Positions 43,885 through 61,094 of a stretch of DNA of 64,000 bases are shown here, piece by piece. Position 1 is the first letter of the stretch. Each line of letters begins with the position of its first letter. Source of the DNA: Dietzia timorensis (GTDB lineage Bacteria; Actinomycetota; Actinomycetes; Mycobacteriales; Mycobacteriaceae). The stretch lies in NCBI RefSeq assembly GCF_001659785.1, contig NZ_CP015961.1:992001-1056000 (forward strand). Direction: 5' to 3'. The notes below the pieces were generated by a model. The model did no database searches and was not told where the DNA came from. It saw only the letters and a list, made by a program, of their open reading frames with translations. The translations under genes and the position numbers were made by a program.

Positions 43885-44502
43885 AAGCACTCCTTAGCGC
43901 GATTGTTCAAACTGGGATACCTTCCCTCGACAAACCCTAAGTAACATCTATAAATAGGCATTTACGTCTAAGTTAATTCCTAACCAATTCGGTTCACGCC
44001 TTTAGCTTTGATTCTTCACGGTTTTTGGGATTGTGCTGCGCGTGGAAGATGGAAAGGATGACTAATTCGAATAGTTTCGGGTTGCTTATGCTAAAAAGTT
44101 GTTCATGACAAAGGCGTCATGCAAGTGAAGACTTCCGGCACCGTCATTGTTGGTTCTATCCTGTCGCGGGCGTGCTCGTTTGCCGGTCGTGTCCCGATGG
44201 CTGAAATTGCGTCTAAGCTGCGCGTCGACGCCTCCGCGAGCTCGTTGCCCGGATCAACCTGGTCGAACACGCCGCAGACCACGCCATGCGCAGCGTGGCC
44301 CGCAGCAGGCAATCCAGGCAAAGAAGTAGCATTTCGGCCACCACCCGCTGGTCGCGGTCATCGATCGCAGCAGGTCAGGGTCCGGGGAAGCCACGGCGAC
44401 GCGCCAGCCCACTGCCGACGCTCGCATGTCTCAAACCAAACAACCCACAAACTCACCCGTGGAAAATCGAGCTAGAGAATCGAACCTGCAATAATTGGCG
44501 GC
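43885..44502. other. 618-bp stretch without a supported gene
   Basis: The part from about 43900 to 44110 is AT-rich and should contain the promoter of the leftward peptide gene. The part from about 44119 to 44475 is GC-rich and open in more than one frame, but the translated products look like random or decayed coding sequence. None has a good ribosome site or a protein family I recognise. It could be the remnant of a lost gene. Confidence 0.55.
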
Positions 44503-45360
44503 GTGACTGCGATCAAACTGGACGGCAAGCTAACCCGCGACGAGATCGTCGCCGACCTGACCAAGCGCGCAGCGGCGCTGGCGGAAAAGGGCATCGTGCC
44601 CGGTCTGGCAACCGTGCTCGTCGGAGACGATCCGGGAAGCGCGTCGTATGTGAAGATGAAGCACCGCGACTGCGAGCAGATCGGGATCAAATCGATCCGC
44701 GTCGACCTACCCGAGGACACCACGCAGTCCCAGCTCGAGGCCGAGATCGACAGGCTCAACGCCGACCCCGAGTGCACCGGCTACATCGTGCAACTCCCGC
44801 TGCCGAAGCACCTCGACGAGAACGCGATTCTCGAGCGCATCGCCCCGGATAAGGACGCCGACGGGCTGCACCCGACGAACCTCGGCCGTCTCGTCATCGG
44901 ACAGGACGCGCCGCTGCCGTGCACCCCGAATGGCTGCCTGGCGCTGCTGCGCCGCTTCGACGTCGAGATCGCCGGCGCCGAGGTCGTGGTCGTCGGTCGC
45001 GGGCTCACCGTCGGGCGGCCGATCGGACTGATGCTCACCCGTCGCAGCGAGAACGCCACAGTGACGCTGTGCCACACCGGCACGAAGGACCTCGCGGCGC
45101 ACACCCGCAACGCCGACATCGTTATCGCCGCGGCCGGCGTGCCGCACATGATCACCGCGGACATGGTGAAGCCGGGCGCCGCGCTCCTCGACGTGGGCGT
45201 CTCGCGCGTCGACGGTAAGCTTGCAGGAGATCTCGCACCCGACGTGTGGGATGTGGCGGGCGCCGTCAGCCCCAACCCCGGAGGTGTGGGTCCGCTGACC
45301 CGTGCCTTCCTGATGACGAACGTTATCGAGCGGGCCGAGCGCCTCGCGGAAACAGACTGA
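44503..45360 (+). CDS. folD: Bifunctional methylene-THF dehydrogenase/cyclohydrolase FolD
   Basis: This encodes 285 residues. Family segments are [20 protein letters not shown] with the catalytic lysine at about 56, [68 protein letters not shown] and [17 protein letters not shown]. It interconverts methylene-, methenyl- and formyl-THF in one-carbon metabolism. The start is a GTG at 44503, chosen because it sits one residue before the family start TAIKLDGK. Its last 38 bp overlap the convergent P450 gene. In mycobacteria the next gene is usually the DUF3017 gene, which here is 12.5 kb away. Confidence 0.95.
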
Positions 45361-46708
45361 TCCGCACGCTGTTCGGGCGGATCCCGACGCCCTTGGTGGT
45401 GTAGCCGACTGCGGTGCGTGGGGCGCCGTCGTCCTGGGCGACCGGGACGAAGTTCTGCAGGATCGCGGCGGCCTGGATTGTGAGTGCCGACCACGAATAC
45501 AGGTCGGCTGGGCAGTTGCGCACGCCGACGCCGAAGGGGATCGCGGCGGTATCGCGTGCCTCGGACTCGTGGCCCGGGAGCCAGCGGTGCGGCTCGAACG
45601 CGGCGGGTCGGGGGAAGTTGCGCGGATCGTGGTGGATCGCTTGCGGGCTCATCCCGATCTGGACGCCGCCTCCGAGCGTGAGATCGCCGAGACGGATCTC
45701 GCCGCGCGCATCGAGCAGCGTGATCCACGAGGTCCACAGGCGCATCGTCTCCATGAGGGCGCGGCGCGTGGCCGGCAGCGAGGTGGCGTGGTGAGCCTCG
45801 ACGGGCCCGGACCCCACGACGTCATCGATCTCGTCGATGACCTCCGACCGCGCGGACGGCGAGTGGGTGAGCTCGTGCAGGAACGCCAGGAGCATGCCCG
45901 CCGGCGATTCGATGCCGCCCATGACGAAACCGACGAGCTCGTCGACGATGTCCTCGTCACCGAGGAACTCACCCGTCCCCGGGTCGACATGATTGACCAG
46001 CGTCGAGAGCAGATCGCCGCGGTCGTCGCCGTGGCGGCGGTACTCCGCGACGACGTTCTTCGCCTCCGCGCGCATGCGGTCCGAGGTGTCGAGGAAGCGG
46101 CGGTGGGCGCCGCGGCGCAGCTCGGCGACCGCGACGGGGAGAATTGTGCGGATCGAGGCCTCGGCGAGAAGTTCGGGGGACTTCGAGCTGAGGACCGAGC
46201 GCGCGTCGGCGCCGACGTCGGCGCGAATGAGCGAGGCCATGAGCGTGTCGATCGCGAGCTTATCCACGTAAGGCGTGGCCTCGAACGGCGTACCGACGGG
46301 AAGCGTGCCCAGCCACTGCTCGGCGATCTCGGCATAGGACTCCGCGTACACAGCGATGCGGTTGCGGTGGAAGGCCGGCGCGATGAGACGGCGCCGGCGA
46401 CGGTGATCGGACCCGCTGAGCGTGACCAGCGAACGGCCCGTGAACGGGGCGACAGGCTCGATGAGATTGTCGCGGTGGAATTCGCCGGCCCGGCCGAGGC
46501 CGACATCCCGCACCAGTTCGATCGTCGTGGCCATGTAGAGCGGGCGCGGCCCCAGCCCGACCTTGACCACGGGACCGTACGTCGGCAGGGAGCGGACGAA
46601 CGGGAGCGGATCGGTGATGAGCTGGCGCGCATGGCCGATCCCGGGGAGGCGCCCCGGAGCCCAGGGGACGTCGGCGGGGCGTTTCGGGAATGCGGCCATG
46701 TTGATCAC
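45323..46708 (-). CDS. Cytochrome P450 of the biosynthetic operon
   Basis: This encodes 461 residues. It has the ExxR in ETMRLW, PxxFxPHRW-like [12 protein letters not shown], and the heme loop [16 protein letters not shown] with the cysteine. The I-helix reads [13 protein letters not shown], where the usual acidic-Thr pair is changed to Glu-Ser, suggesting unusual oxygen activation. The N-terminus resembles a membrane-facing long-chain type ([16 protein letters not shown]). It starts at a GTG at 46708 or an ATG nine bases later. It is the last gene of the seven-gene operon, 28 bp after the prenyltransferase gene, and its end overlaps folD by 38 bp. Confidence 0.9.
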
Positions 46709-46736
46709 GGATCCTTCCGGCTAGCGGTGGTCAGGC

Positions 46737-47651
46737 TCAGCCGATGAGCACGAGCAGGGAAACACAGAGGTAGAGCAGGACGAGGAAGAGCGCAGACGAG
46801 GCCGTGCTCGGCCGGTCCCGCTCGCCGCGCGCGTAGTTCCACAGGGAATCGAACGGGATGATCAGCGTCAACGGAAGGAGCCATCCTGCGACGTTGAACA
46901 CCGGCGCGGTGTCCCAGGGATGAGCGAGGATGATCGCTCCGAACACTGCGAGGACCGAGAACGCCGCGGACAGCGCCGCCGCGCCGCGCACGCCGAGCAC
47001 GTCCGAATAGTCACCGGCGGCCGACCCCTCGGCGGAGGCGGACTTGCGCGCGACCTCGAACTGCAGGAAGGCGCCGGCGAAGAACACGAACACCCAAATG
47101 ATCTGCGGGGTGGCCGCGCCGGGTTCCAGTCGCTGGTACGTCGAGGCCAGGAGAAATACCGTGGCCAGGACCTGCACCGGGTACGTCAACGCCATCTCCA
47201 GGAGCGGCCGACGCTCCAGGTGCGGTATCGCGCGGCCGAGCGGCCACAACGCGATTCCGTAGGCGAGGACCACCGCGAGGGCCGCCGCGCCCACGACGCC
47301 CGCGGACAGATAGGCGAGTGCAAGCGCCGCCGCGGCGAAGAAGCCCGCGGCCGCGCCGAACTCGGCCGGGGTGGCGCGACCGGAGGGGAGCGGGCGCTGC
47401 GGGTGCGCCGCTCGGTCGCCGGGAAGATCCTTGAGATCGTCGAGTAGGCGCAGCGAGATGAGCGCCGCCAGCAGCGCGACCGTCTGCGCAGCGAAGCGCC
47501 CGGCATCGGCGGCGTCGACGTCGAAATCGGCGAGCTCCCGCGCGGCGGACGTCGCCGCCGAGGACCATAGGACGGCGTAGAGGATGTAGTAGGCGGGAAA
47601 GCGCTCGCGGAAAAACACCGCGGTCGCCCCGGCCACACCTAGCGGCGTCAT
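46737..47651 (-). CDS. UbiA-family prenyltransferase
   Basis: The product has 304 residues and eight or more hydrophobic helices. The first aspartate motif is DDLKDLPGD at 71-79, followed by HPQRPLPSG as in UbiA-type enzymes. A second acidic motif is in SAAGDYSDVLG. Such enzymes join a prenyl chain to an aromatic ring, a sugar phosphate or another small acceptor in the membrane. The start overlaps the stop of the NDK-AfsA gene by 4 bp. Its presence suggests that the product of the operon is prenylated or membrane-bound. Confidence 0.88.
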   Translation of the reverse strand: MTPLGVAGATAVFFRERFPAYYILYAVLWSSAATSAARELADFDVDAADAGRFAAQTVALLAALISLRLLDDLKDLPGDRAAHPQRPLPSGRATPAEFGAAAGFFAAAALALAYLSAGVVGAAALAVVLAYGIALWPLGRAIPHLERRPLLEMALTYPVQVLATVFLLASTYQRLEPGAATPQIIWVFVFFAGAFLQFEVARKSASAEGSAAGDYSDVLGVRGAAALSAAFSVLAVFGAIILAHPWDTAPVFNVAGWLLPLTLIIPFDSLWNYARGERDRPSTASSALFLVLLYLCVSLLVLIG

Positions 47652-49528
47652 CGGCTACCAGGCCCCGTCTCGCCGATATCGGGACGACGCAAGCCCACGA
47701 GCACATCGGAGATCATCCGACCCCGTTGGCGTAGGAGAACGCGCGCCCCGAGCGTGGCGCCGGTCGGCGCGTCCTGGGACGACGTGTCGAGCTCGACTTC
47801 GCTCTCGAGCTCGCCGAAGCCACGGAAATCCGCATCGATCGACGTCATATGCCAGTGATCGCGTTCGCCGGCGGGCACGGTGAGCAGCGCGGACTGGCGT
47901 GCGCCTTCGAGCTGGAGCATGCCGGGAACGTGGTCGAGGGAGTGGTCGAAGTGCACCGGGTGGGACGGGTCCACGACCAGCTGCAGGCCGCCGGGGGAGA
48001 TGACGGCATTCGCCGCGACCTCGCGGAGGATTTCCTTCGCTGTGATCGGCGTGCACGGCGCGAGCGCGACCGGATCGCCGGCGAAGCCCGAGAACTCGCG
48101 GGCTGCTGACCGAAGCGCCTGGTAGTCCGCCTGCGACAGCCACGTGTAGGAACCGGAGAACGTCGCGAGGCGAGCGCGTTCGGGGCCGAACACCGTGAAG
48201 TCCACATCGAGTCCAGTGACCGTGCCGTCTCTGCCGGGCGCGGCACGTTCGCGTTCGGAGGCGATATCGATGGTGATTTCCAGCGGTCGCCCCGAATGTC
48301 GCGGGGCATCGCCGTCGAAGGTACCGCTGAATCGGCGCACGATGAACGCGTGCCCCAGCGGCGCACCATAGTTGACGTGAGCGCTTGCGATGGCGCCCTG
48401 CCGGCAGGTCTCCATCAGCTGGAGCAGGTCGACTCGCCCGGATTGGGCGCCGAGGTGATCGCCGTGCACGGGGTGGGCGCGGGAGACCTGCGCGCCGACG
48501 GGAACGACGAGGCGCCCCTGGTCGTCGCGGCGCGGTTCGGCCATGGTGGACACGAACGTCTCGGCGCGCGACCGGCGGTGGACGAGCCGACGGTCGAGGG
48601 TGCGCGTATGCAGCGGCTCGGCCGTCCCGGTTCGCCACGCAGCGGCGCCGGGATTGGCGAGAGTGACGTCGCCGTGCGGGGTGCGCATGGGCAGCGATCC
48701 CGCCCCCGCCACGAGGACATGCCAGGCGGTGAGCGGATCGAGCTCGGCCGGCGAGGCGAGGAGCCGGCGCGCGGTGTCCTCGGTGGTTTCCCCGCGGTGC
48801 GAGCGAGCGATGAGCGCTATCCGGGAGTTCTCTACATTGATAGTGGGCTTTCGGTGCTTGTTGGTGAGCTCGGCGGCAAGGGTACGCGCGGTGGCCGCGG
48901 AGTCGTGGCGCGACAGGATCCGTTCGAATGCCTGCGCCCTGCGCGCGGTGTCGAAATAAATTCCCAGCTCGCGTAATACGTCGGCGGGTTCGTCCGGGGT
49001 GTGGACGAAATTGAGCAGGTACGAGTCGGTCGGCAGCGCGTGGCGGAGCTCGCCGGGCACGCGCTTGGTCGGGTCGGTCGGTCCCTTCGCGGAGGTGAGC
49101 TCGACGGATGTAGGGATGTCCCCGTCGGTGCGGTCTCGTCCGAGAACGAGGACCAGCGAGGGCGACAACGAGCGGATGACGTCGGCCAATCCCCGCCGCT
49201 CGGCCGAGGCGATATTCCACTGGTGCAGCCACAGCGCGCGAATGTCGTTGCGGCCGAGCTCGAGTGCCGCGGCGTCGTGAATCGTGTAGCCGGCCTCGAG
49301 TAGCCAGTCGACCGCTGCCGGTGCCGCGCCGGCGCACACCCCGTCGGGCTTGATGAGGAGCACGGCCGTGCGGGCGCCCTCGGCGGCAGCGTCCTCGGTT
49401 CGTTCGGCCAGCTGCTCGGAGGCCTCGAGATACCACGTGTCGCGGGCGAAGATCTCGGCCTTATCCGGTGAACGCGTCCAGGACCCGAGCAGGCTCGCGG
49501 GTGTCCGTGCGGTGTTTTCGGTACTCAT
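47648..49528 (-). CDS. NDK-like domain fused to AfsA-type double hot-dog protein
   Basis: The product has 626 residues. Residues about 53-195 resemble nucleoside diphosphate kinase: VLLIKPDGV at 57-64, GPTDPTKRVPGELR at 149-162, and LLNFVHTPD with N173 and H176 in the place of the catalytic histidine. Residues about 200-300 are not recognised. Residues about 313-410 are a first AfsA hot-dog (LVHRRSRAETFVSTMAE, then MetCys-ArgGln in LMETCRQGAI). Residues about 495-610 are a second (DHSLDHVPGMLQLEGARQS). AfsA enzymes join a beta-keto acyl group to dihydroxyacetone phosphate in gamma-butyrolactone synthesis. The genes on both sides overlap by ATGA. Confidence 0.85.
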   Translation of the reverse strand: MSTENTARTPASLLGSWTRSPDKAEIFARDTWYLEASEQLAERTEDAAAEGARTAVLLIKPDGVCAGAAPAAVDWLLEAGYTIHDAAALELGRNDIRALWLHQWNIASAERRGLADVIRSLSPSLVLVLGRDRTDGDIPTSVELTSAKGPTDPTKRVPGELRHALPTDSYLLNFVHTPDEPADVLRELGIYFDTARRAQAFERILSRHDSAATARTLAAELTNKHRKPTINVENSRIALIARSHRGETTEDTARRLLASPAELDPLTAWHVLVAGAGSLPMRTPHGDVTLANPGAAAWRTGTAEPLHTRTLDRRLVHRRSRAETFVSTMAEPRRDDQGRLVVPVGAQVSRAHPVHGDHLGAQSGRVDLLQLMETCRQGAIASAHVNYGAPLGHAFIVRRFSGTFDGDAPRHSGRPLEITIDIASERERAAPGRDGTVTGLDVDFTVFGPERARLATFSGSYTWLSQADYQALRSAAREFSGFAGDPVALAPCTPITAKEILREVAANAVISPGGLQLVVDPSHPVHFDHSLDHVPGMLQLEGARQSALLTVPAGERDHWHMTSIDADFRGFGELESEVELDTSSQDAPTGATLGARVLLRQRGRMISDVLVGLRRPDIGETGPGSR

Positions 49529-50637
49529 CGGCGTCCTCCCGCGTCGCCTGCAGCGACGCTCGCCACGGCCTCGTCAACCGAGCGCAGGCCGTCGGCGAGG
49601 AAGCCCACCCGAAGGCAATCGTCGAAGATCGCGCGAAGAAGCTCCCTCCCGCTTGCTGGAAGCGCGGCGTCATGGGCGGCGAGCAACTCCCTCGTGGCCG
49701 TGGTGTCGAAGCGGACGGTCCGGACGAAGTAGTCGGTGTAGTCGCGGGCGACGCGGTCGAAGTAGGCGCGCTCGCGACGGTCGAGCTCGCCGGGGTCGAA
49801 ACCGGCGGGCGGCACGAAGCGGTTGATGTCGAAGCAGGGATACTCGGAGATTACATCCGAGACATCGCGCAGGCTGAGCGCGTCCCGTCCGACCGCGTGG
49901 AAGGTACGGCCGGTAATGCCGTCGGCGACGACGTGCGCGATGACGTCGGCGACCATGTCCACAGGGGCGAGCGCGAGCGTCGCGCCGTAGCGCCCGGGAA
50001 GGGTGCGGAGCTTGCCCTCGGTGATGAGCTTGAGTACGAGGTAGAGGTTTCGGCGGTCGGTGATGCGGCCGTCCTCGCTGTGCCCACATACGATCCCGGG
50101 GCGCACGATGGCGACGGGCAGGCCGCCGCGCTCGGCGTCCAGCACAATCCGTTCGGCCTCGAGCTTCGAGGCCTCGTAGCCGTTGTTGAAACGTTGCCCC
50201 CGGTCGAGTTCGGATTCGCCGAACGTCGCCCCCGGGCCGGCTTGCTCGTCGAGCTTGCCGCACACGTACGCCGTCGACACGTGCACGAGCCGCGCCGAGG
50301 CGCGCTGGGCGAAGGCGACGGCGTTCTCGGTGCCGCCGATATTGAGACGCCGGTATACCTCGTCGGGCTCGGAGAAGTTGGTGGTCGCCGCGCAGTGGAC
50401 GACAGTGTCGACCTGCCGCACCAGCGAGTCGGTCGGGTCGAGGCCGAGACCGGCGGCCGTGACGTCTCCGGAGACGACGCGGACGCGGGCCGCGTGGAGC
50501 GGCCCGTCGACCGTACGGATATCGGGTGTGCTGTGCACCATCGCGAGCACGCGCCGCCCCTGCCGTGCCATTCGCGCGCACACTTCCGCGCCGACCAGCC
50601 CCGCCGCGCCGGTAACCAGTACTGCGCCGCCGCTCAT
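49525..50637 (-). CDS. NAD(P)-dependent thioester-reductase-like protein
   Basis: This encodes 370 residues of the extended SDR/male-sterility (NAD_binding_4) type. It has VLVTGAAGLVGAEVC at 6-20, HCAATTNFSEPDEVYRRLN, VHVSTAYVCG with S121, and the catalytic NNGYEASKLEAERI with Y154 and K158. This subgroup reduces acyl thioesters to aldehydes or alcohols, or acts as an epimerase. Beside an acyl carrier protein, release of an acyl chain by reduction is the likely job. It is coupled by ATGA to the genes on both sides. Confidence 0.9.
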   Translation of the reverse strand: MSGGAVLVTGAAGLVGAEVCARMARQGRRVLAMVHSTPDIRTVDGPLHAARVRVVSGDVTAAGLGLDPTDSLVRQVDTVVHCAATTNFSEPDEVYRRLNIGGTENAVAFAQRASARLVHVSTAYVCGKLDEQAGPGATFGESELDRGQRFNNGYEASKLEAERIVLDAERGGLPVAIVRPGIVCGHSEDGRITDRRNLYLVLKLITEGKLRTLPGRYGATLALAPVDMVADVIAHVVADGITGRTFHAVGRDALSLRDVSDVISEYPCFDINRFVPPAGFDPGELDRRERAYFDRVARDYTDYFVRTVRFDTTATRELLAAHDAALPASGRELLRAIFDDCLRVGFLADGLRSVDEAVASVAAGDAGGRR

Positions 50638-50894
50638 GATCCGGAGCCCTTCATCTCTGCCGCGAGATCCTGCACTGCATCCACCGTCATCACCCCGGCG
50701 AGCCTGGCCTGGGGGATGGGGTCGAGTTCGAGTGCGTCCTCGAGCGCCATCGTCAGCTCGACGAGGCGGAGCGAGTCGAAGCCGAGATCGTCGATGAGAC
50801 GAAGTTCCGGCTGTAGACCGCCGACCGGCGGGTTCGGTGCCATCGCCTCGACGACGTCGAGGGCCCGCTTGCGTGCCTGGGCGGCGTCGGTCAT
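50634..50894 (-). CDS. Acyl carrier protein
   Basis: This encodes 86 residues with the phosphopantetheine attachment site in LIDDLGFDSLRLVELTM (Ser about 41) and the helix VDAVQDLAAEM at the end. It is a stand-alone carrier. Its place between an acyl-AMP ligase gene and a reductase gene, with 4-bp overlaps to each, shows that it is the carrier of this operon and not the fatty-acid AcpM. Confidence 0.93.
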   Translation of the reverse strand: MTDAAQARKRALDVVEAMAPNPPVGGLQPELRLIDDLGFDSLRLVELTMALEDALELDPIPQARLAGVMTVDAVQDLAAEMKGSGS

Positions 50895-53800
50895 GGGATG
50901 TCTCCTTCAGTCGTGTCGATGCCGGCGTGCGGTTGTTGGCCGCCGGATTCGACGAGGTCTCTGGCTTCGTCGAGCGGCAGCGTCGCGTCGAGGTATCCGC
51001 CGAGCCGCAGCCAGTCGTAGGCGATCTTCAGGGTTGCGTTCCACTGCGCGGGGCCGTCGAAGGACGAGGGGAAACCGGCGCCGATCGCGAGTTCGCGCAC
51101 GGCCCGGACGAGCTCGTCGATCCGCGCGGTGAGGCCCGCCGGATCGGCGCGGATCGCCTCCGCCGACGTGAGCTCTCCGAGTAGATCGTCGACCGTGCCC
51201 GCGAGGGAATCGAGCTGCGGGCTCGGCGGGCAGAGCGTGCGCAGTGAACGCGCTGGCTGCACGTCTGCCGGCAGCGGGTACACCCCGCAGCTGGTGAGCA
51301 CGAGTCGCGAGGACAACAGCACCACGCGCGCCGCGGCGGCCGACGCGACGCCCCATTGCTCGCTGCGCAGCGCGCCGTCGAGGTCCTCGCGCGCGTTCTC
51401 GGTCACCATCAGCGACCACACGAGAGCCATCCCGCACGCGGCGAAATCCTCGGCGCGCAACGCGGACCGGACGAACGGAACCCGCGAGTTCGCGGTGGTC
51501 GCGCCGGCCAGCGTCAGCGCGGGCACGGCGCTCACCACTGGAGGGCTCACCGCCTTCGCCTCGGCGACCATCGACATCGCGGGCCGCACCTCGCGCCACT
51601 CCTGCCCGGCGCGCACCGAAAGCCGCACCAGCCCCAGGTCGAGCGCCCATTCCAGCACGTCCGCACGTGCCGAGTCACCGTCTAGATGCCAAGCCAGGGA
51701 TCGCCCGGGAACAACGCGCCGCCAGGCATCCGCGAACTCCGACGTCAGAACGAACACATCTTCGCGCCCGCGGACGACGTGCGCCCGCGAACCGATGATC
51801 CACGTGGTCACCTCCGGCGCGCGCTCGATGCGAAGCTGCGCCGGCGACGGCGCGCGCGTGCCCAGGCGCTCGTCGGCGAGCTCGGCCCACCGCACGGCAA
51901 AGCCGGTCGACGCGCCTCCCGTTGCTCCCAGCAGCTCGGCCGCCGCGGAGTCACCTGCGCGGCGCAGCTGCTCGGCGAGCCACTTGGATTCCAGGTACGT
52001 CTCGCCCTTGCCGGCGAGCTCCGCCTTGAGCGCCTGCACACCGGCCTCGCGCATCCAGCCCGCTTCGCCGGCGGCATTGCCGAATGCCCGAGCGGCCACG
52101 GCCCGGGCGCGGCACGACTCCGCCCGCACCCGCCACCACTTACCGAGGACTCCCGCCAGCTCACGTGTGTGGGGAAGGGACACACCGTCTATGACGGCGG
52201 ACGCGCGCACCAGCTTGGACCCCGCGAGCCGCTGGCAGCGATTGAGAATATCCTCGCCCGGGACCTCGGGGTCGGGATCGTCCGCGGCGGCCGCCTCGAC
52301 GGCAAGCCGATCGAATTGCGCGTGGATCTCGGACTCCGAGCGCGTGCGCACCTCGACCCGGCGGCCCGCCTCGAACAGAACGGTCGGCATCGTCGGAGTG
52401 GACGGATCGCCGGGGATGACGACGAGGAAGTCGACGTCGCTGCGCGCGTTGCCGAAGCCCTCGGCGAGCGAACCCTCGTGGAGAACGCCCGCGGCGGCGG
52501 GAACGTCGACGCGCGGCGCGACCGTCTCCCACAGGGCGAGGATGTCGGGGCCGGCGTAGTCGCGCGCGTCCTCCCCCGAGCCCACTGCAGGAGTAGCGGA
52601 AGGGCCCCTTCGGTCGTCGTGGTCGCCGTTCGCGGGACTGCTGTCACCATCCGCCGAGCCGGCGAGGAGCCGGATGAGTTCGTGGCGGCGCGGCTTGCCG
52701 CTGGAGGTTCGGGGGATGAACCCGCGCGAAACCTCGCGCACCTCGACCTCGCGGTCCCCGCACAGCGCGCGCAACACGGTGCGCGCGGACTCGGATTGCT
52801 CGGCGCGCGGCGTCTCGAGAGCCAGGAGTACCTTCGGCCCACCGGCCTGCGGCGCGGCCGCGGCGGCGACCCGTCCGCCGGGGAGCCCGGTCGCGTGGGC
52901 GACCGCAGCGTCGAGGTCCTCCATGAACACGGTGCGCCCACGCGTCTTCAGCGAGGTACCGATACGCCCGAGAACGTACAGTCCGCCCTCGTGGAAGAAC
53001 CCCGCATCGCCTGTGCGCAGCACTCCGCGGTCGAACCGAGTCCTCTCGGGGTCGACCGGCCCGTCCAAGGCCTGGACATAGCCGTCCGCGATCGACGGCC
53101 CGGCGACGCAGATCTCGCCGACCGTGCCCGCAGGCAGCGGCGCACCATCGGGATCGCAGATGGTCACCGGCGCGTCGGCGTCTGGTGCGCCCACGCAGAA
53201 CGACCAGGTGACGGCGTCGGCGCCGGGCAACGAACCGTCTGTGGCGGACCATTCGTCGGAGATTGCCGCGGGCCGGCCGATCTCCGTAGCCGGAGAGAGC
53301 GCGAGAGCCCGCATCGTCTCGCCGAGCCGCGTCCCGCACGACATGAGCGTCGATTCGGCGAGCCCGTAAGCGGGCCGAATCTGAGCGACGGTGAACCCCA
53401 GCTCGCCGAACCGCTCGAGGAACCCGGAGATGTCCGCAGCGCGCAGCGGCTCGGAACCGATGACCAACGACTTGAACCCCGATAAATCCACATCGGGAAG
53501 TTCGCGCCCGCGCAGGCGGTATGCCGCGTAGCCCAGGCCGAAGGACGGGCTCGCCGAGTGCTGGCATCGCGAGAGCATCTCCACATAGCGTTCGGGCCAT
53601 CGAATGAACTGGTCCGGGCGCATCAGCTCCAGTCGTGACCTGGTCGACACCGCCAGCAGCACGATCCCCACCAGTCCCATGTCGTGGAACATCGGCAGCC
53701 ACGAGCAGAACCCGTCGCCGGCCTCGAAGTCTACGTGACCTGCGATCATGTCGAGGTTGTGCGCGAGCGCCTCCCAGCTGATCACCACACCTCGCGGCGA

Positions 53801-54385
53801 ACCCGTCGACCCGGAGGTGAATTGCAGGAGCGCGATCTCGCCGCGATCCCGGTCCGCTCCGGAATCGCCGACCCGCCCGGCCCGCGCGGCCAACGCAGCG
53901 GGGGAGACGATGTGCGCCCTCGAACCGGCGAGCTCCCGGGCCCGCTCGGCGAGCGGGGAGAAGTCGTCGCTCGCCAGCACGAGCGGTGCGCCGGAGACCT
54001 CCAGGATCCCGGCGATCTTCTCTGCGGCCGCGTCCGCCTCGCCGAGCCCGGGAGGCGACAGCGGCACGAGCGCAGCGCCGGAGTCGAGTACCGCCCAGTA
54101 GGCGATCACCGTGTCGACGGCCGTAGGCGCGATCACGGCGACCGGCGTATCGGCGCCGTAGCCGTTCGAGGCCAGCCAGTACGCGATCGCATCGCCGAGC
54201 TCGCGTACCCGGGAAGCCGCCTCGTCGTAGCCGAGGCAGTCCCATTCGCCGCCATCTGTCAATGCACGTATGACGGCGGAGCTGCCCGGCTCATCAACCC
54301 AGCCGACAACGCGGGCGATGTCGATATCCGCCCACCGACGCCGTTCTTCCCTGCCCGTCGAACGAGGAGTCGAGGTGGCCGTCAT
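50891..54385 (-). CDS. Acyl-AMP ligase (FAAL-like) fused to a nucleotidyltransferase domain
   Basis: This encodes 1164 residues. Residues 20 to about 575 form an adenylate-forming enzyme of fatty-acyl-AMP ligase type: LLQFTSGSTGSPRGVVISWE at 186-205, WLPMFHDMGLVG at 229-240, AYGLAESTLMSCG at 339-351, LRTGDAGFF at 456-464, and the catalytic K564 in PRTSSGKPRR. After a linker comes a minimal nucleotidyltransferase motif, HEGSLAEGFGNARSDVDFLV at 636-655 with D650 and D652. The remaining residues (about 690-1164) are helical with no family that I can name. The gene begins by ATGA overlap with the phosphotransferase-like gene and ends by overlap with the carrier gene. Confidence 0.88.
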   Translation of the reverse strand: MTATSTPRSTGREERRRWADIDIARVVGWVDEPGSSAVIRALTDGGEWDCLGYDEAASRVRELGDAIAYWLASNGYGADTPVAVIAPTAVDTVIAYWAVLDSGAALVPLSPPGLGEADAAAEKIAGILEVSGAPLVLASDDFSPLAERARELAGSRAHIVSPAALAARAGRVGDSGADRDRGEIALLQFTSGSTGSPRGVVISWEALAHNLDMIAGHVDFEAGDGFCSWLPMFHDMGLVGIVLLAVSTRSRLELMRPDQFIRWPERYVEMLSRCQHSASPSFGLGYAAYRLRGRELPDVDLSGFKSLVIGSEPLRAADISGFLERFGELGFTVAQIRPAYGLAESTLMSCGTRLGETMRALALSPATEIGRPAAISDEWSATDGSLPGADAVTWSFCVGAPDADAPVTICDPDGAPLPAGTVGEICVAGPSIADGYVQALDGPVDPERTRFDRGVLRTGDAGFFHEGGLYVLGRIGTSLKTRGRTVFMEDLDAAVAHATGLPGGRVAAAAAPQAGGPKVLLALETPRAEQSESARTVLRALCGDREVEVREVSRGFIPRTSSGKPRRHELIRLLAGSADGDSSPANGDHDDRRGPSATPAVGSGEDARDYAGPDILALWETVAPRVDVPAAAGVLHEGSLAEGFGNARSDVDFLVVIPGDPSTPTMPTVLFEAGRRVEVRTRSESEIHAQFDRLAVEAAAADDPDPEVPGEDILNRCQRLAGSKLVRASAVIDGVSLPHTRELAGVLGKWWRVRAESCRARAVAARAFGNAAGEAGWMREAGVQALKAELAGKGETYLESKWLAEQLRRAGDSAAAELLGATGGASTGFAVRWAELADERLGTRAPSPAQLRIERAPEVTTWIIGSRAHVVRGREDVFVLTSEFADAWRRVVPGRSLAWHLDGDSARADVLEWALDLGLVRLSVRAGQEWREVRPAMSMVAEAKAVSPPVVSAVPALTLAGATTANSRVPFVRSALRAEDFAACGMALVWSLMVTENAREDLDGALRSEQWGVASAAAARVVLLSSRLVLTSCGVYPLPADVQPARSLRTLCPPSPQLDSLAGTVDDLLGELTSAEAIRADPAGLTARIDELVRAVRELAIGAGFPSSFDGPAQWNATLKIAYDWLRLGGYLDATLPLDEARDLVESGGQQPHAGIDTTEGDIP

Positions 54386-57072
54386 CGCTTCGCCTCCTCA
54401 TCCTGCTCTGCGTCCGATTCCTCGGCGCCGCCGAGAACGGTAACCGTGCCCGCGGTAGCGTCCACGCGCACTCGCATCCCGTCGCGCAGCAGCGAGGTGA
54501 GGTTCTCGATCTGCACGACCGTGGGAATGCCCAGCTCGCGCGCGATGATCGCGACGTGGGTGAGCGGCGATCCGCGCTCGATGAGAAGTGCCTGTGCCGC
54601 GGGCAGCGCCGCCGCCCAGCCCGGATCGGTGCGGTAGCCGACGAGGATGCCCTCGCGGATATCGGCCGGCGAATCGACGACAACCACCGTGCCCTCGGCA
54701 ACGCCCGAGGACGAGGCCACGCCGGTGAGCTCGTCGCCGGCCTCCGCCGCCGGTAGCCCCGACCGCGGAACGAAGCCGAGCTCGGCGAGCTCGCCGCGGC
54801 CGCTCACCGGACCCGAGGTCCAGAACCGCGCTGGGCCCGCAACCGAGCGCGACAGATGTAGAGCCTCCCGGCGCCGCTCCACTGATGCGCGCGCGGCTTC
54901 TCCGCCGTCAGAAGTGGTGCCGCCACGAAGTTGCGCGCGAAGCTCGTCCAGAGTCAGGAAGAACACATCCTCGAATTCTCCGAGGACCCCGCGGGCGGCG
55001 AGGTCGCGGCCCATGGCGCGAACCATGCGCTTGACCATCCCGAATGCGCGAGTGCGTGCGAAGCGCAGGCGCTCGCGCGCGGCGGCACCCGCGGAGGTCT
55101 TGCGGCGTAGCGCCTCGTAGACGCGGCGGCGCACGCCGTGCAGATTCGCGTCGAGGTAGGCCTCGGCGTCTTCTCCTCGATTCGGGGCGCCGCCGGCCAT
55201 CGCCGCTCGCAACAGGACGACGAGCATCGACGGGTCCTCGCGGAGGTCGGGGATCTCTAGCTTGAGCTCATCGAGGCTGCGGTAGCCGTAGTTGTCGATG
55301 TATTTCTCGGCCGCGAGGCGCAACTTCTCCGGGCCGTGGTCCCGGATCCACGCATATACCTCGCCGGGATCGCCGCGGCGGATGCGCTCGGCCACCGTCT
55401 CGTCGTCGAGGAGCGCGGCCATGTCCGCAAGGGCGTGGGCGGGCTCGGCGGACTCGATATCCTCGCCGGGCGCGATCACCGCGAATCCGAACCATTCGGG
55501 CGCCTTCGGCAAAAAGAGCTTGGTCAGCGCGAACAACAGTCCGGACAACGTGAGAAGTGCCGCGTCGAGCACCATCACCGGCCCCCACCGACGCAGCAGT
55601 TCGCTCTCGAGTTCCTCGAAGCGAGCGAGAACCTCCGTCCCTTCCATCTCGTCGTAGTCGAGCGCGTCGAAGCGGGCGTAGATGGCGTCGAAGTCACGGA
55701 GGAAATCGTCGACGAACGACTCGACCGTGGCGATCCTGCGAACATAGGTCGCGGTGGTGATCGCGCGGGAGACGAGTTTATGGGCGGGTGTGCGGAACGT
55801 GAACGGTGCGAGGGTGCGCGCGATCTTCGCATCCAGCGGCTCGCCGACGCCGAGCGCGACCTCGAGCACGCGCCGGTTGAGCGCGTATCCGGGCGCGATT
55901 CCGACCATCCGATACCAGTGCAACAGGTCGTAGTACACGCGTCCGTAGAACTGTCCGAGCAGGTGCGGGGTCCACTCGGCGACCTGCTCGAGCTGGGCGC
56001 GCGGCACCCGCAGCGAACGTGCATAACCGTCGTAGACGTGGCGGTACACGTTCGACGCGGTCGAGAAGGTCAGCGGTGAGGTGGGGCCGTTGAAGCTTTC
56101 GAGAATGTTCGAGTTGTCCCACAGGCGCGCCTCGCCGGCGCCGACCCGTTCGGCTGAGACGAGGTCGTCGATCCCGACGGGCACGGGCAGGTCGGGAATC
56201 GGCGTCGACGCGGTCACCGGGCGGCATTGCAGGATGTGTAGCCCGGCGTCATCGAAAGCGAACTCGACGTCCTGCCGCGGCCCGATGGCCTCGGCAATCC
56301 GCGAAAGCGTCTGCCCGAGCGTGCGGTACTGCTCGCGGGAGAGCGCGGACTCGGCGCGCGCGGCGGGGCCGACCTCCAGCTCGTGGACCTCACCGCCGAC
56401 GCGGCGGAACGCCGATTCCTTTGCTCCGATGCGCTCGGTAAGTACCTCGCCGGCGACGTCGAGCACCGCGGAGTCGGCGTCGACGGCGCCGGAGACGACC
56501 CCCTCGCCGAGCCCGTATGCCGCGCTCACGAGCACCCGCTCGTCGAGCGTGAACGCAACCCCCGCAGCGTATGGATCGACCATCTTCTGGATGACGACGG
56601 CCATCGGCGTGCCCGCGGCGGCCGGCCCTTCGGCAGCCGAGGCAGCGACATCCGGAAGCGCCGAGGCCCAGCACCTACGAACCGCGTCCTCTACCGCGCG
56701 CGGATCGTTTGCGCGCACGCCGAGCACGGTCTCGAAGCGGCCGGCGAGGGATTCGTCCGAGCCGTCTTCGGCCAGGCCCGAGGAACGCACGGCCACGAAC
56801 TCGCAGTCCAGTTCATCGAGTATCGCCGCGATGCGCGCCTCGGTGTCCGCGTCGAGTGGTTCGCTCAATGCCAGCTCCCGCAGAGAGCCACCAGCGGACC
56901 CAGAGTCTGCACGGGACCGCACGCGGCCCAGGTGTGTCTGGCCGTACGCGGCATCGAGTGCGCGCCACGGCGGCACGTCGAGTCCCGCGGCGTCTAGTCG
57001 GAGTAGCCCGATCGCTTTGCCTCCGACTTCTCGTACGTCGGCCCGGTCGAGTCTCACGTCTGCGGATCCCAT
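54382..57072 (-). CDS. PEP-synthase/rifampin-phosphotransferase-like enzyme
   Basis: This encodes 896 residues. Residues about 15-305 form an ATP-grasp PPDK_N domain (FVAVRSSGLAEDGSDESLAG at 92-111, MVDPYAAGVAFT, and EFAFDDAGLHILQCRPV). A long middle part follows (about 320-780). The C-terminal PEP-utilisers mobile domain has the phospho-histidine H839 in ERGSPLTHVAIIARELGIP. Rifampin phosphotransferases have this order: ATP-binding, substrate-binding and His domains, giving AMP, phosphate and a phosphorylated substrate. The PEP/pyruvate TIM-barrel domain of true PEP synthase appears to be absent. It is the first gene of the operon; the start ATG at 57072 has only a weak ribosome site. Confidence 0.88.
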   Translation of the reverse strand: MGSADVRLDRADVREVGGKAIGLLRLDAAGLDVPPWRALDAAYGQTHLGRVRSRADSGSAGGSLRELALSEPLDADTEARIAAILDELDCEFVAVRSSGLAEDGSDESLAGRFETVLGVRANDPRAVEDAVRRCWASALPDVAASAAEGPAAAGTPMAVVIQKMVDPYAAGVAFTLDERVLVSAAYGLGEGVVSGAVDADSAVLDVAGEVLTERIGAKESAFRRVGGEVHELEVGPAARAESALSREQYRTLGQTLSRIAEAIGPRQDVEFAFDDAGLHILQCRPVTASTPIPDLPVPVGIDDLVSAERVGAGEARLWDNSNILESFNGPTSPLTFSTASNVYRHVYDGYARSLRVPRAQLEQVAEWTPHLLGQFYGRVYYDLLHWYRMVGIAPGYALNRRVLEVALGVGEPLDAKIARTLAPFTFRTPAHKLVSRAITTATYVRRIATVESFVDDFLRDFDAIYARFDALDYDEMEGTEVLARFEELESELLRRWGPVMVLDAALLTLSGLLFALTKLFLPKAPEWFGFAVIAPGEDIESAEPAHALADMAALLDDETVAERIRRGDPGEVYAWIRDHGPEKLRLAAEKYIDNYGYRSLDELKLEIPDLREDPSMLVVLLRAAMAGGAPNRGEDAEAYLDANLHGVRRRVYEALRRKTSAGAAARERLRFARTRAFGMVKRMVRAMGRDLAARGVLGEFEDVFFLTLDELRAQLRGGTTSDGGEAARASVERRREALHLSRSVAGPARFWTSGPVSGRGELAELGFVPRSGLPAAEAGDELTGVASSSGVAEGTVVVVDSPADIREGILVGYRTDPGWAAALPAAQALLIERGSPLTHVAIIARELGIPTVVQIENLTSLLRDGMRVRVDATAGTVTVLGGAEESDAEQDEEAKR

Positions 57073-57181
57073 CCATCAATTCTATTGCGGTTCGTGCACA
57101 TAGGGTCTTCCCGAACTATCGGGAACTGGAGGCGGGTACGTTTCACTTTGCGACGTGAGAGTTTCCTCATCGGGGTGAGCG

Positions 57182-57215
57182 CTCTGCCGCATCGGGCGCC
57201 TCCGATGCGGCAGAG
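57182..57215. promoter_or_regulatory. 14-bp perfect inverted repeat in the divergent promoter of the operon
   Basis: CTCTGCCGCATCGG-GCGCCT-CCGATGCGGCAGAG has perfect 14-bp arms and a 6-base centre. It lies 110 bp before the first gene of the leftward operon and 9 bp before the nitroreductase start. No T-run follows, so it is not a usual terminator. It may be an operator for a dimeric regulator or a leader hairpin. Confidence 0.6.
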
Positions 57216-57223
57216 TACGGGGT

Positions 57224-57856
57224 ATGAACGAACAGGATCCGCCCGGGAACCACGACCTCGTCGCTGTGTTGACAACAACCAGGTCGGTCCGGCTACGGCT
57301 TCGATTGGATCTCCCGGTCGCCCGCGAGGATGTCCACGACTGCCTCCGGATCGCCGCGCAGGCCCCGACCGGCGCAGGAACTCTCAAGGCGCACTGGATC
57401 GTCGTGCAGAACGGCGCGTCCATCGCCGCGCTCGGCGAGATCTATCGCGGTCTCTGGCACGGAAGGTACGACCACGCCCTGGCCGGCGTGCCCCAGGAGG
57501 ATCTTCCCGCCGACGTGCGCAGCGCGATGCACCTCGCGGACAATTTCGGTCGTCTCCCCACAGTGGTTCTGGGGTTCGTCGAAGCTCCCACCGATACACC
57601 CGATAACCAGGCATCGTTGTGGTCTTCGCTCCTTCCGGCGGCGTGGAGCTATGCGCTCGCGGCGCGTGGCCGCGGCCTCGTCACCGCGTGGACGACGACA
57701 CTCAACGATGCGCAGACGGAGGTCAGCAAGCTATTTGGCGTGCCCATTGGGTACACGTTGGGCGTGGCTCTTCCGACGGCCTACCCTGAAGGGCAAGCAT
57801 TCAAGCCCGCGGCCAGGTACGGGTGGCGCGAGCGGATCCACGACGAAGGGTGGTAG
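57224..57856 (+). CDS. Nitroreductase-family protein
   Basis: This encodes 210 residues with the FMN-binding pattern of the nitroreductase family: TTRSVRLRLRLDLPVAREDV at the start, IAAQAPTGAGTLKAHWIVVQ, and late SLLPAAWSYALAARGRGLVTAWTT (read in part). It probably uses NAD(P)H and FMN; the substrate is unknown. The ATG at 57224 is close to a large hairpin and has only a weak ribosome site. It is divergent from the seven-gene operon and 3 bp before the DUF3017 gene. Confidence 0.87.
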   Translation: MNEQDPPGNHDLVAVLTTTRSVRLRLRLDLPVAREDVHDCLRIAAQAPTGAGTLKAHWIVVQNGASIAALGEIYRGLWHGRYDHALAGVPQEDLPADVRSAMHLADNFGRLPTVVLGFVEAPTDTPDNQASLWSSLLPAAWSYALAARGRGLVTAWTTTLNDAQTEVSKLFGVPIGYTLGVALPTAYPEGQAFKPAARYGWRERIHDEGW

Positions 57857-57859
57857 TCG

Positions 57860-58234
57860 GTGCCGAACAACAGCGCGGCCGGCAGCGCCGGGAGGTCCCG
57901 GCCCAGCAGTGCCGTCGGGCCGCGTCACCGGGCGCCGATCCGCCGCCCCCGGCGATTTTCGCGGAGCCGCCTTCGCGCGGAATGGCCACTGGCGATCATC
58001 CTCGCAGGCATCGTCATCTCGCTGCTTCTCATGGTCTTCGACCGTTGGCGCCGCGGGGCCTTCGCGCTCGGCGTGGTCGCCCTACTCGCCGCGGTGTTGC
58101 GGGCTGCGCTGCCCCACACGAAGGCGGGCCTGCTCATCGTCCGCTCGAAGGCCTTCGACGTCGCATTTCTCGCGGTGGTCGGCGTGCTGGTCATCTGGCT
58201 GTCGCTGTCGGTTGATTCACTCGGTACCGGGTAG
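57860..58234 (+). CDS. DUF3017 family membrane protein
   Basis: The product has 124 residues, a basic N-terminus (about 1-40) and three hydrophobic segments (about 43-60, 66-85 and 98-118). The DUF3017 family is recognised from MVFDRWRRGAFALG and the following ALPHTKAGLLIVRSKAFDV. The function is unknown; in mycolata it is usually beside folD. The start is a GTG at 57860, 3 bp after the nitroreductase stop. The separation from folD shows that the 12-kb operon is an insert. Confidence 0.85.
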   Translation: MPNNSAAGSAGRSRPSSAVGPRHRAPIRRPRRFSRSRLRAEWPLAIILAGIVISLLLMVFDRWRRGAFALGVVALLAAVLRAALPHTKAGLLIVRSKAFDVAFLAVVGVLVIWLSLSVDSLGTG

Positions 58235-58266
58235 CAGTCGCGGGAGGCTCGAGACCGGCGGCGGGA

Positions 58267-59418
58267 TCAGGACTCCGCGAGTTCTAGCGTGCGCGTAAGC
58301 AGCGGCCCTACTACGTCCTTCTCGGTGAGGAAGCCGTCGTGCCCGGCGTCCGAGGGAATCACCGCCAGCGGGTCGGCGCCGGGGAGGAGGTCGGCGAGTT
58401 GCTCCTGTTGGCGGAGCGGGTATAGGCGGTCCGACGTCACTCCGCCGATGACGCACGGCACGTGGCAGCCGGTAAGCGCCGCGTCGACGCCGCCGCGATC
58501 GAGGCCCACATCGTGGCGGTTGAGCGCATCGGAGAGCAGCACATAGGTGCACGCGTCGAATCGCGTGACGAGCTTCGCGGCCTGGTGGTCGAGGTAGGAC
58601 TGCACCGCGTAGCGGCCCGCCGGTCCGAACGCGGCGCCGCGCGGTTCCTCGCCGGGCTGGGCGCGATTTTCGAATCGCTCGTCGAGCTCTTCCTCGCTGC
58701 GGTAGGTCAGGTGCGCGATCCGGCGCGCGATCCCAAGTCCCTGAACCGGCACCTGGCCGGTGCCGTGATACCCGCCGGCCTGCCAATTCGGGTCCGAGGT
58801 GATCGCCATGATCTGCGCGGTCTGGATGCCGATCTGGTCCGCGCTTGCCCGCGCGCCGACCGCGAATACGCACGCCGCGCGCATCCTTTCGGGGTGCCCG
58901 ACCATCCACTCGAGGGTCCTGGCTCCGCCCATGGATCCGCCGATGACGGCGGCGAGCTGATCTATCCCGAGGATGTCGCACAAGGCGAGCTCCGCCGCGA
59001 CCATGTCGCGGACGGCGACGGCAGGGAAGCGGGCGCCCCAGTAGTGGCCGTCCGGGTGCAGCGAGCTCGGCCCCGTGGTGCCTCGGCACCCACCCAAGAC
59101 GTTTGTAGAGATAAAGCAGTATTTGTCCGTGTCCAGCGGCAGCCCGGGACCGAGCAGGCCGTTCCACCACCCGGGTGTCGGGTGCAGCGGATCGACCGGC
59201 CCGGAGACGTGCGAATCTCCGGTGAGCGCGTGCTCGATGAGCACCGCGTTCGACCGGTCTTCGTTAAGCCGTCCCCACGCCTGTAGAGCAATGGTGACGC
59301 CGGGCAGTACGACACCTGAGATCAGCTCGAGTTCGCCGATCGAGATATGGCCGAGCTCGCCGTTCTCGCCCGGGAGGGCGACGGGCGGCGAGCTCGGTGA
59401 CACATCGGGAGTGGACAA
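58267..59418 (-). CDS. metX: Homoserine O-acetyltransferase MetX
   Basis: This encodes 383 residues from the TTG at 59418; a GTG at 59403 is an equally possible start, since no ATG exists. Seen are [23 protein letters not shown] (read in part), [15 protein letters not shown], the nucleophile elbow [21 protein letters not shown]-like [14 protein letters not shown], and the late acid/His region [10 protein letters not shown] and [10 protein letters not shown]. It is an alpha/beta hydrolase-fold enzyme that acetylates homoserine for methionine synthesis. It is downstream of metY in one operon under a SAM-IV riboswitch. Confidence 0.92.
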
Positions 59419-60914: not shown

Positions 60915-60987
60915 CGTGTCTACATGCGGACCCGCGCTTGCTACCACCGATACCCGAATTCTCGCGAGTGTGCCGCAGATAACGCGG

Positions 60988-61094
60988 CGCTCGCCCGGGC
61001 AGGTAGAGCCTGGTCGTCTCCCGGGGCACCCCACCGCGGTGGAGGGTTGCCGCTCAGCAAGCCGGGGCTTTGCGCTGAGTCTCATGACCTACCG
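60988..61094 (-). promoter_or_regulatory. SAM-IV riboswitch upstream of metY-metX
   Basis: The leftward strand reads GGTAGGTCATGAG at the 5' end, then AGCGCAAAGCCCCGGCTTGC, GCGGCAACCCTCC, CGCGGTGGGGTGCCCCGGG and AGACGACC, ending with CTACC. These pieces match the SAM-IV consensus (CATGAG, AAGCCCCGGC, GGCAACCCTCC, GGTGGGGTGCCCCGGG) and its P1 pairing. This class is known from actinobacteria ahead of methionine genes and turns them down when S-adenosylmethionine is high. Confidence 0.9.

Follow-up and report, generated by a model that had tools for sequence, protein, structure and literature searches.

A patchily distributed actinobacterial gene cluster, found in Dietzia timorensis, that combines AfsA with phosphate-handling enzymes and an atypical UbiA protein

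The 64,000-nucleotide stretch of the Dietzia timorensis genome analyzed here (contig NZ_CP015961.1, positions 992,001 to 1,056,000, referred to as the window) contains seven minus-strand open reading frames (ORFs) at 45323-57072. They code, in order of transcription, for a dikinase resembling the prodiginine ligases RedH and PigC, a probable fatty acyl-AMP ligase (FAAL) joined to a nucleotidyltransferase (NTase), an acyl carrier protein (ACP), a stand-alone thioester reductase-like protein (TR), a nucleoside diphosphate kinase (NDK)-like domain fused to AfsA, a UbiA-superfamily membrane protein, and a cytochrome P450 (Table 1). We conclude that this locus very probably represents a biosynthetic gene cluster for an unassigned natural product, patchily distributed among genomes and internally well conserved. 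An earlier sequence-only reading of this DNA had singled out the gene set; the set extends well beyond this genome and belongs to a widespread cluster family.

We gathered 72 loci by scanning genomes with an alignment of the NTase domain, so the constancy of the NTase in this sample is by construction. The RedH-like dikinase, FAAL, NTase, ACP, TR, NDK-like, AfsA and UbiA domains followed each other in the same order and on one strand in 67 of the 72, the five exceptions being short or contig-end loci (L085, L092 and L102) and different clusters (L084 and L103). Several core genes of Tsukamurella sp. PLM1 (L059/L131) appear in fragments, as either sequencing error or decay would produce; L131 is counted among the 67. 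A search with the NDK-AfsA protein matched 84 of 301 genomes of the family, mixed with ordinary AfsA, and in 20 of the 27 stretches found in this way all eight core domains were matched in order. The other seven had AfsA only (L034 and L038), the RedH-like and NDK-like genes only (L036, L037 and L052), NTase, TR and NDK-like genes (L039), or lay on a short contig (L040). Pairwise distances of six cluster genes, the NTase not among them, were compared over the 67 loci and the window, with the five exceptions set aside beforehand; they correlate at r values of 0.91-0.97, against a shuffled maximum of 0.30, a correlation that could stem from related hosts alone.

Samples of 396 genomes from across the phylum and 394 from across the class each contained six with the NTase, and these were the same six genomes. 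In genus g34, most likely Streptomyces, an NTase match at an E value of 1e-5 was present in 22 of 343 genomes, 16 of them strong, and all 16 corresponding loci keep the RedH-like, NTase, TR, NDK-like, AfsA and UbiA genes in order. The nitroreductase occurs in 14 of these 16, and FAAL in two, with an ACP gene called beside FAAL in both (direct search recovers only one of them). We therefore dropped FAAL and ACP from the core, given that FAAL is present in just two loci of this genus, and define the core as the RedH-like dikinase, NTase, TR, NDK-like domain, AfsA and UbiA, with FAAL and ACP as a loading module. Accessory matches in the 72 loci comprised P450 (39), nitroreductase (33), GT1 (30), O-methyltransferase (28), GT4 (24), ABC-2 (11) and GT87 (3). 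We assign the nitroreductase, P450, glycosyltransferases and O-methyltransferase to tailoring. The P450 gene is often oriented opposite to the core genes, and in two loci (L055, gene 9, and L097, 15899-18484) it is fused behind a GT4-type glycosyltransferase, with a second glycosyltransferase gene adjoining.

Within the window, the ORFs and junction sequences reproduced the coordinates, strand, 4-bp ATGA overlaps (five junctions) and 28-bp gap between the UbiA and P450 genes that the sequence-only reading had given, and its domain assignments agree with Pfam and NCBIfam. All seven ORFs that it grouped are present; the divergent nitroreductase gene is also part of the cluster unit, and the P450 is accessory. 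Its claim of a single unit is supported by the junction spacing and by the conserved order and strand across loci. It is from spacing that the seven genes are taken as one transcription unit, since no sigma-70-type consensus promoter was matched in 44400-58400 and the six terminator-like matches in the same interval are near the shuffled mean of 4.6. 

Table 1. Features of the cluster and its flanks in the window, cluster genes in order of transcription.
Feature	Coordinates	Strand	Details
RedH/PigC-like dikinase	54382..57072	-	896 aa; Pfam PPDK_N ATP-grasp and PEP-utilizers His domain
FAAL, N-terminal half of 1164-aa protein (50891-54385)	52586..54385	-	AMP-binding; NCBIfam
NTase (DUF6001/NTP_transf_2-like), C-terminal half of 1164-aa protein	50891..52585	-	GSLAEGFGN-SDVDF and conserved Glu
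ACP	50634..50894	-	86 aa; PP-binding 6.3e-05
TR, stand-alone thioester reductase-like SDR	49525..50637	-	370 aa; NAD_binding_4 1.6e-44
NDK-like domain (NDKL), N-terminal part of 626-aa protein (47648-49528)	48629..49528	-	NDK 1.4e-08
AfsA double-hotdog domain (phosphorylated butenolide synthase type), C-terminal part of 626-aa protein	47648..48628	-	AfsA 9.3e-30
UbiA-superfamily membrane protein	46737..47651	-	304 aa; UbiA 2.9e-07; first Asp motif kept, second ExARK
Cytochrome P450 (accessory)	45323..46708	-	461 aa; p450 3.4e-40
Nitroreductase-family protein, eighth cluster gene, divergent from operon	57224..57856	+	PF00881 1e-11
Divergent intergenic region	57073..57223	.	151 bp; likely promoter region for both units, from gene layout only
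folD, flank outside cluster	44503..45360	+	THF_DHG_CYH; 3' end overlaps P450 3' end by 38 bp
DUF3017 gene, flank outside cluster	57860..58234	+	PF11222 4.4e-22

The catalytic residues are conserved, including those of the three phosphate- or nucleotide-handling domains that the sequence-only reading had recognized. Conservation was counted over a chosen 22 loci, with 13-23 sequences per protein, rows with less than 70% query coverage or with a stop being dropped. In the dikinase, the ATP-grasp and His residues R96, E102, D103, D268, E270, Q282, R284 and H839 are invariant in 21 sequences. Pfam gives PPDK_N and PEP-utilizers for this protein and no further domain, and its best NCBIfam match is NF004881 ("phosphoenolpyruvate synthase") with 786.5 bits, short of the cut-off of 883; RedH (261.9 bits, cut-off 1350), PigC (204.7 bits, cut-off 1300) and rifamycin phosphotransferase (223.3 bits) are also matched. 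Its best PDB matches, 5fbs, 5hv2 and 5hv1, carry the file name "Phosphoenolpyruvate synthase", and we take them to be rifampin phosphotransferases. A phosphoenolpyruvate (PEP) synthase has a PEP/pyruvate-binding barrel beside PPDK_N and PEP-utilizers, and we rejected this identity for the first gene, as only the latter two are seen in Pfam and the NCBIfam PEP synthase families stay below cut-off.

The FAAL half of the 1164-aa protein matches AMP-binding at 4.3e-46, and K564 of its SSGKPRR motif is invariant in 22 sequences. Its best NCBIfam match is PRK09192, a fatty acyl-AMP ligase, which scores 238.4 bits against a cut-off of 600; a long-chain acyl-CoA ligase family ranks second (213.6 bits), ahead of FAAL families. 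The NTase half belongs to a family in which, among 27 members searched at E values up to 1, 26 match NTP_transf_2 (best 2e-05) and 13 match DUF6001. It keeps GS..SDxD and the third acid, with D50, D52 and E78 at least 90% conserved. The NTase profile gave only weak matches against the PDB (best E value, 0.011), and the name DUF6001 was not found in the open-access literature searched. Ser41 of the ACP is invariant in 19 sequences, as are Y154 and K158 of the TR in 22; the latter protein matches TIGR01746 with 139.4 bits, under the cut-off of 213.35. C399, E320 and R323 of the P450 (the Cys and ExxR) are invariant in 16.

NDK phosphotransfer depends on a Lys, an Arg, an Asn and a His. In the NDK-like domain the Lys of KPD, the Arg of LR, the Asn and the catalytic His align with those of 11 housekeeping-type NDKs, and the GSD that follows this His in them is missing. 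AfsA comes after the NDK-like gene in collinear loci, and in Dietzia the two form one protein. AfsA itself reaches 103.8 bits in Pfam (cut-off 24), over two matched stretches, and 163.8 bits with the NCBIfam ScbA/BarX family NF041195, which is below the cut-off of 200; E73, R76, Q77, D228, H229, D232, H233, E241 and R244, from both hotdogs, are invariant in 22 sequences. AfsA homologues are described as condensing 3-keto thioesters with dihydroxyacetone phosphate (DHAP) into phosphorylated butenolides, also as a chain-release step that does not serve signaling (PMC7756379).

The UbiA protein has seven hydrophobic segments by a simple count and scores 30.5 bits in Pfam, below the cut-off of 34.2, and it matches no PDB sequence at E values up to 1. 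Canonical UbiA motifs, as summarized in a passage of PMC7839719, are NDxxDxxxD and DxxxD. All 14 aligned cluster members keep the first as D-D/E-x-K-D-xxx-D, and all 14 have ExARK in place of the second, so the protein departs there from a canonical UbiA prenyltransferase. As a control we aligned 11 further UbiA proteins taken from two of the genomes; DxxxD is present in seven and absent from four (L173, L174, L178 and L179). Among the 72 loci, one codes for an isoprenyl diphosphate synthase-like protein, in a search with L204 as the query, which recovers L203 at 27% identity. The sequence-only reading had listed acyl activation, carrying, reduction, AfsA condensation, prenylation and P450 oxidation; the enzyme families were all recovered, and the prenylation is doubtful, because the second Asp motif is lost and because a local isoprenyl diphosphate synthase is so rare.

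Two sister clusters have a related gene set. The one in Antrihabitans cavernicola (L084, L249 and L250) codes for FAAL-NTase, ACP, TR, an ABC transporter, UbiA, a metallo-beta-lactamase-fold protein and a KS-ACP-thioesterase, together with a second RedH-like protein, 33% identical to that of the window. It also contains two proteins resembling thymidylate kinase, one at 35.3 bits and the other at 20.8 bits, under the cut-off of 27, and an HMG-CoA-reductase-like domain with a weak APH-kinase match behind it (18.6 bits, cut-off 23.2). A second cluster of Nocardia mexicana (L103, L246 and L248) codes for FAAL-NTase, ACP, TR, a RedH-like protein and a thymidylate-kinase-like protein, as well as a protein 43% identical to the UbiA of A. 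cavernicola and itself without a Pfam match at an E value of 0.01. One very long ORF there combines aminotransferase III, Rossmann, PPDK_N, PEP-utilizers and thymidylate-kinase domains. NDK-like and AfsA domains were unmatched in the stretches examined of both sister clusters, where thymidylate-kinase-like proteins appear to replace them. Kinase, dikinase, reductase, NTase and UbiA are thus the shared theme, and the AfsA part is variable.

Partial sets also occur elsewhere. The shortened loci L036, L037 and L052 retain a RedH-like gene (505, 505 and 836 aa as called) and an NDK-like gene, and their flanking genes also adjoin full clusters elsewhere; the loss of the NDK Lys in L036 and L037 suggests decay. 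In L039 (genome G298), NTase, TR and NDK-like genes stand beside a class-III aminotransferase, a formyltransferase and an alpha/beta-hydrolase, and AfsA, FAAL and the RedH-like protein were unmatched in that stretch; this is perhaps another pathway that draws on some of the same genes. A second place in genome G477 (L170) has a second NDK-like gene next to an NTP_transf_5 nucleotidyltransferase, two phosphoesterase-family genes and an ABC transporter.

From these families we propose, tentatively and at less than even confidence, that the phosphorylated butenolide made by AfsA is converted by dedicated kinases into a diphosphate, which then acts as a non-isoprenoid donor for the atypical UbiA. 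In this scheme FAAL would load a fatty acid onto the ACP, and reduction of an acyl thioester by the TR would give an aldehyde or alcohol. From a beta-ketoacyl thioester and DHAP, AfsA would form the phosphorylated butenolide by condensation, and the nitroreductase might reduce it in loci that have this enzyme. The RedH-like dikinase may phosphorylate an alcohol or carbonyl made by the cluster, and the NDK-like domain would put a second phosphate on a cluster-made monophosphate, most simply the AfsA product, since the NDK-like gene precedes AfsA and the two are fused in Dietzia. UbiA would then couple the two halves in the membrane, with this non-isoprenoid diphosphate as donor rather than an isoprenyl one, and the P450 and other tailoring enzymes would finish the molecule. 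In the sister clusters, PPDK-type and thymidylate-kinase-like enzymes could lead in parallel from an alcohol to a phosphate and on to a diphosphate. The scheme is supported by the constancy of the gene set with its correlated gene distances, the conserved catalytic motifs, the retained NDK residues, the chemistry of AfsA homologues, the kinases of the sister clusters, the loss of the second UbiA motif, the rarity of isoprenyl diphosphate synthase-like genes in the loci, and the precedent of Rv3806c, a UbiA-fold enzyme with a non-isoprenoid diphosphate donor, 5-phosphoribosyl diphosphate (PRPP), reported in PMC10994848 to transfer pentosyl phosphate to decaprenyl phosphate.

Several points weigh against this proposal. 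It leaves the NTase without a role, and the thioester for the TR would not always be supplied locally, because FAAL is so rare in genus g34. The reaction of RedH and PigC relatives is aldehyde coupling and not alcohol phosphorylation, the normal substrates of NDK are nucleoside diphosphates, and a butenolide-methyl diphosphate would be an electron-poor electrophile. Loss of DxxxD is not peculiar to the cluster UbiA, as the four control proteins show, and two polyprenyl synthase matches elsewhere in the D. timorensis genome mean that an isoprenyl donor could come from primary metabolism. Related hosts might by themselves account for the gene-distance correlation. Finally, gene order, conservation, fusions and domain families are observed, and the chemistry is in every step read from the families.

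A prodigiosin-like logic would use several of the same enzymes differently: an aldehyde from the TR would be condensed, with ATP, by the RedH-like ligase with a ring derived from AfsA, and UbiA would add an isoprenyl group from primary metabolism. The RedH and PigC matches of the first gene suit this idea, PigC being the enzyme that joins both halves of prodigiosin (PMC8557933), and the two polyprenyl synthase matches of the D. timorensis genome could provide the donor. The aminotransferase III-Rossmann-PPDK protein of N. mexicana is reminiscent of PigE, a transaminase that also reduces a thioester (in the relevant portion of PMC8341465). Yet both ligase matches fall far below their cut-offs, NF004881 is the best family with rifamycin phosphotransferase at a score similar to theirs, no function is offered for the NDK-like and thymidylate-kinase-like proteins, and UbiA lacks the second Asp motif. 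We regard this reading as unlikely, though less so than the other alternatives.

A decidedly less probable alternative is a lipid-phospho-sugar or nucleotide-linked lipid, in which the RedH-like enzyme would make a lipid phosphate, UbiA would transfer from PRPP as Rv3806c does in PMC10994848, and the NTase and NDK-like domains would handle the nucleotide end. The recurrence of NTase and NDK-like genes without AfsA in L039, and of an NDK-like gene beside a different nucleotidyltransferase in L170, fits such a product. So does the absence of DxxxD from both the cluster UbiA and L178/L179, which we judged from sequence to resemble decaprenylphosphoryl-phosphoribose (DPPR) synthase and which form the nearest outward branch to the cluster UbiA in an unrooted FastTree phylogeny, with weak support (0.65-0.67). 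However, none of the four NCBIfam matches of the cluster UbiA (P0006) is to a phosphoribosyltransferase, the KRYAE segment of L178/L179 is not preserved in it, and AfsA is left without a role.

That the locus makes an A-factor-type gamma-butyrolactone or butenolide signal we consider quite improbable, despite the intact AfsA motifs, the ScbA/BarX match and a gamma-butyrolactone-like molecule reported for Rhodococcus in part of PMC5735094. The AfsA score is under the ScbA/BarX cut-off, and the cluster holds many more enzymes and tailoring genes than a signal locus. An ScbR-type receptor was matched in 1 of the 72 loci (over 66 residues), in 3 of the 16 loci of genus g34 and not in the window. 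The reach of this receptor search is limited, because it gave a match at only three of six other AfsA places (seven loci, two of them from one place). A receptor gene is present in all three annotated signal loci that were inspected. In a tree of AfsA from a chosen 29 loci (with duplicate rows for L038, L091 and L097), the cluster proteins split from the signal type with support of 91/81; the exceptions on the cluster side are L028, an AfsA-only contig, and the long-branched L031. Two of the g34 loci with a receptor match, L239 and L244, also carry, close to the cluster, a second AfsA gene along with two ScbR-like matches, which may belong to a signal system of their own, and the second AfsA of L239 groups with the signal type. 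The lipid signal suggested by the sequence-only reading is weakened accordingly by the scarcity of receptors. That the pathway makes a structural or storage lipid instead of a secreted natural product is very improbable. The loading of fatty acids, the membrane location of UbiA and the hosts, for the most part mycolic-acid bacteria, would suit such a role; a patchy distribution (3 of 23 Dietzia genomes and 16 of 343 in g34) and variable tailoring and export genes speak against it.

The cluster lies in a 3.61-Mb single-contig genome. A DUF3017 gene was matched in 18 of 23 Dietzia genomes and is adjoined by folD in 14 of these 18. One further stretch, near a contig end, shows no folD, and the remaining three (the D. 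timorensis genome, G170 and G190) have the nitroreductase beside the DUF3017 gene instead. The entire cluster was seen in place in D. timorensis and G170, with folD beyond the P450, and a fragment of it on a separate 5-kb contig in G190; the NDK-AfsA fusion occurs in the same three genomes, which are the 3 of 23 with a full-length NDK-AfsA protein. Since folD and the DUF3017 gene are adjacent in most relatives and enclose the cluster in carriers, the operon and nitroreductase gene, about 12.5 kb, constitute an insert between them. In the plasmid and phage collections searched, the NTase domain had no match. With the NDK-AfsA protein, 165 plasmid records gave a match, but in no case over 80% of its length. 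Beyond the DUF3017 gene lie an alpha/beta-hydrolase gene, a gene for a Cys/Met metabolism pyridoxal phosphate enzyme (59472-60803) and an Iso_dh gene. The second of these has an upstream SAM-IV riboswitch (60929-61089, minus strand, 96.1 bits), an ordinary methionine-regulation element.

Parts of the cluster recall known systems. With the AfsA butenolide pathways (A-factor, methylenomycin furans and gladiostatin chain release) it shares the double hotdog with intact motifs and, presumably, the condensation of a beta-keto thioester with DHAP; it differs by FAAL-NTase, ACP, TR, the RedH-like dikinase, the NDK-like domain and UbiA, with no ScbR in the window. The dikinase has the PPDK_N ATP-grasp and PEP-utilizers His domain, and nothing further in Pfam, in common with RedH/PigC and rifampin phosphotransferase, and differs in that its nearest family is NF004881, whose cut-off it also misses. 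The UbiA protein resembles UbiA, MenA and the DPPR synthase Rv3806c in its first Asp-rich motif and seven hydrophobic segments and is set apart by ExARK. The pairing of a reductase with a PPDK-type ligase, like the long N. mexicana protein, recalls the prodigiosin pathway (PigC/PigE), with phosphate kinases and UbiA in place of the other prodigiosin genes. No description of the whole set was found in the open-access literature, most subscription papers and MIBiG lying outside the search; within that scope the view of the sequence-only reading that no described pathway has this set still stands. Genome surveys of Nocardia and Rhodococcus mention butyrolactone clusters, in the passages available, in general terms. 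As ScbR-type receptors are scarce, the locus would be a variant of AfsA-dependent biosynthesis and not an ordinary gamma-butyrolactone signal locus, which suggests that AfsA serves biosynthesis here instead of signaling.

The cluster is spread over Nocardia, some mycobacteria, Tsukamurella, Gordonia, Antrihabitans, Dietzia and, most likely, Streptomyces. It is conceivable, if still on the doubtful side, that it stands for a whole family of actinobacterial pathways in which dedicated kinases (the RedH-like dikinase with NDK-like or thymidylate-kinase-like enzymes) build a non-isoprenoid diphosphate out of precursors derived from fatty acids or AfsA, this diphosphate serves an atypical UbiA as alkyl donor and the NTase has a new role. 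If the donor is indeed built by kinases, this would be UbiA chemistry without isoprenoids, and a first product for so widespread a cluster would test whether UbiA-fold enzymes can be fed by non-isoprenoid diphosphates made in the cluster. The locus also offers a testable setting for the DUF6001-related nucleotidyltransferase, and the Dietzia version, with eight genes in about 12.5 kb and an empty site in 14 relatives, is convenient for expression and deletion. With a lipid-like product and unusual phosphate-adding enzymes in prospect, the cluster is a good target for new chemistry.

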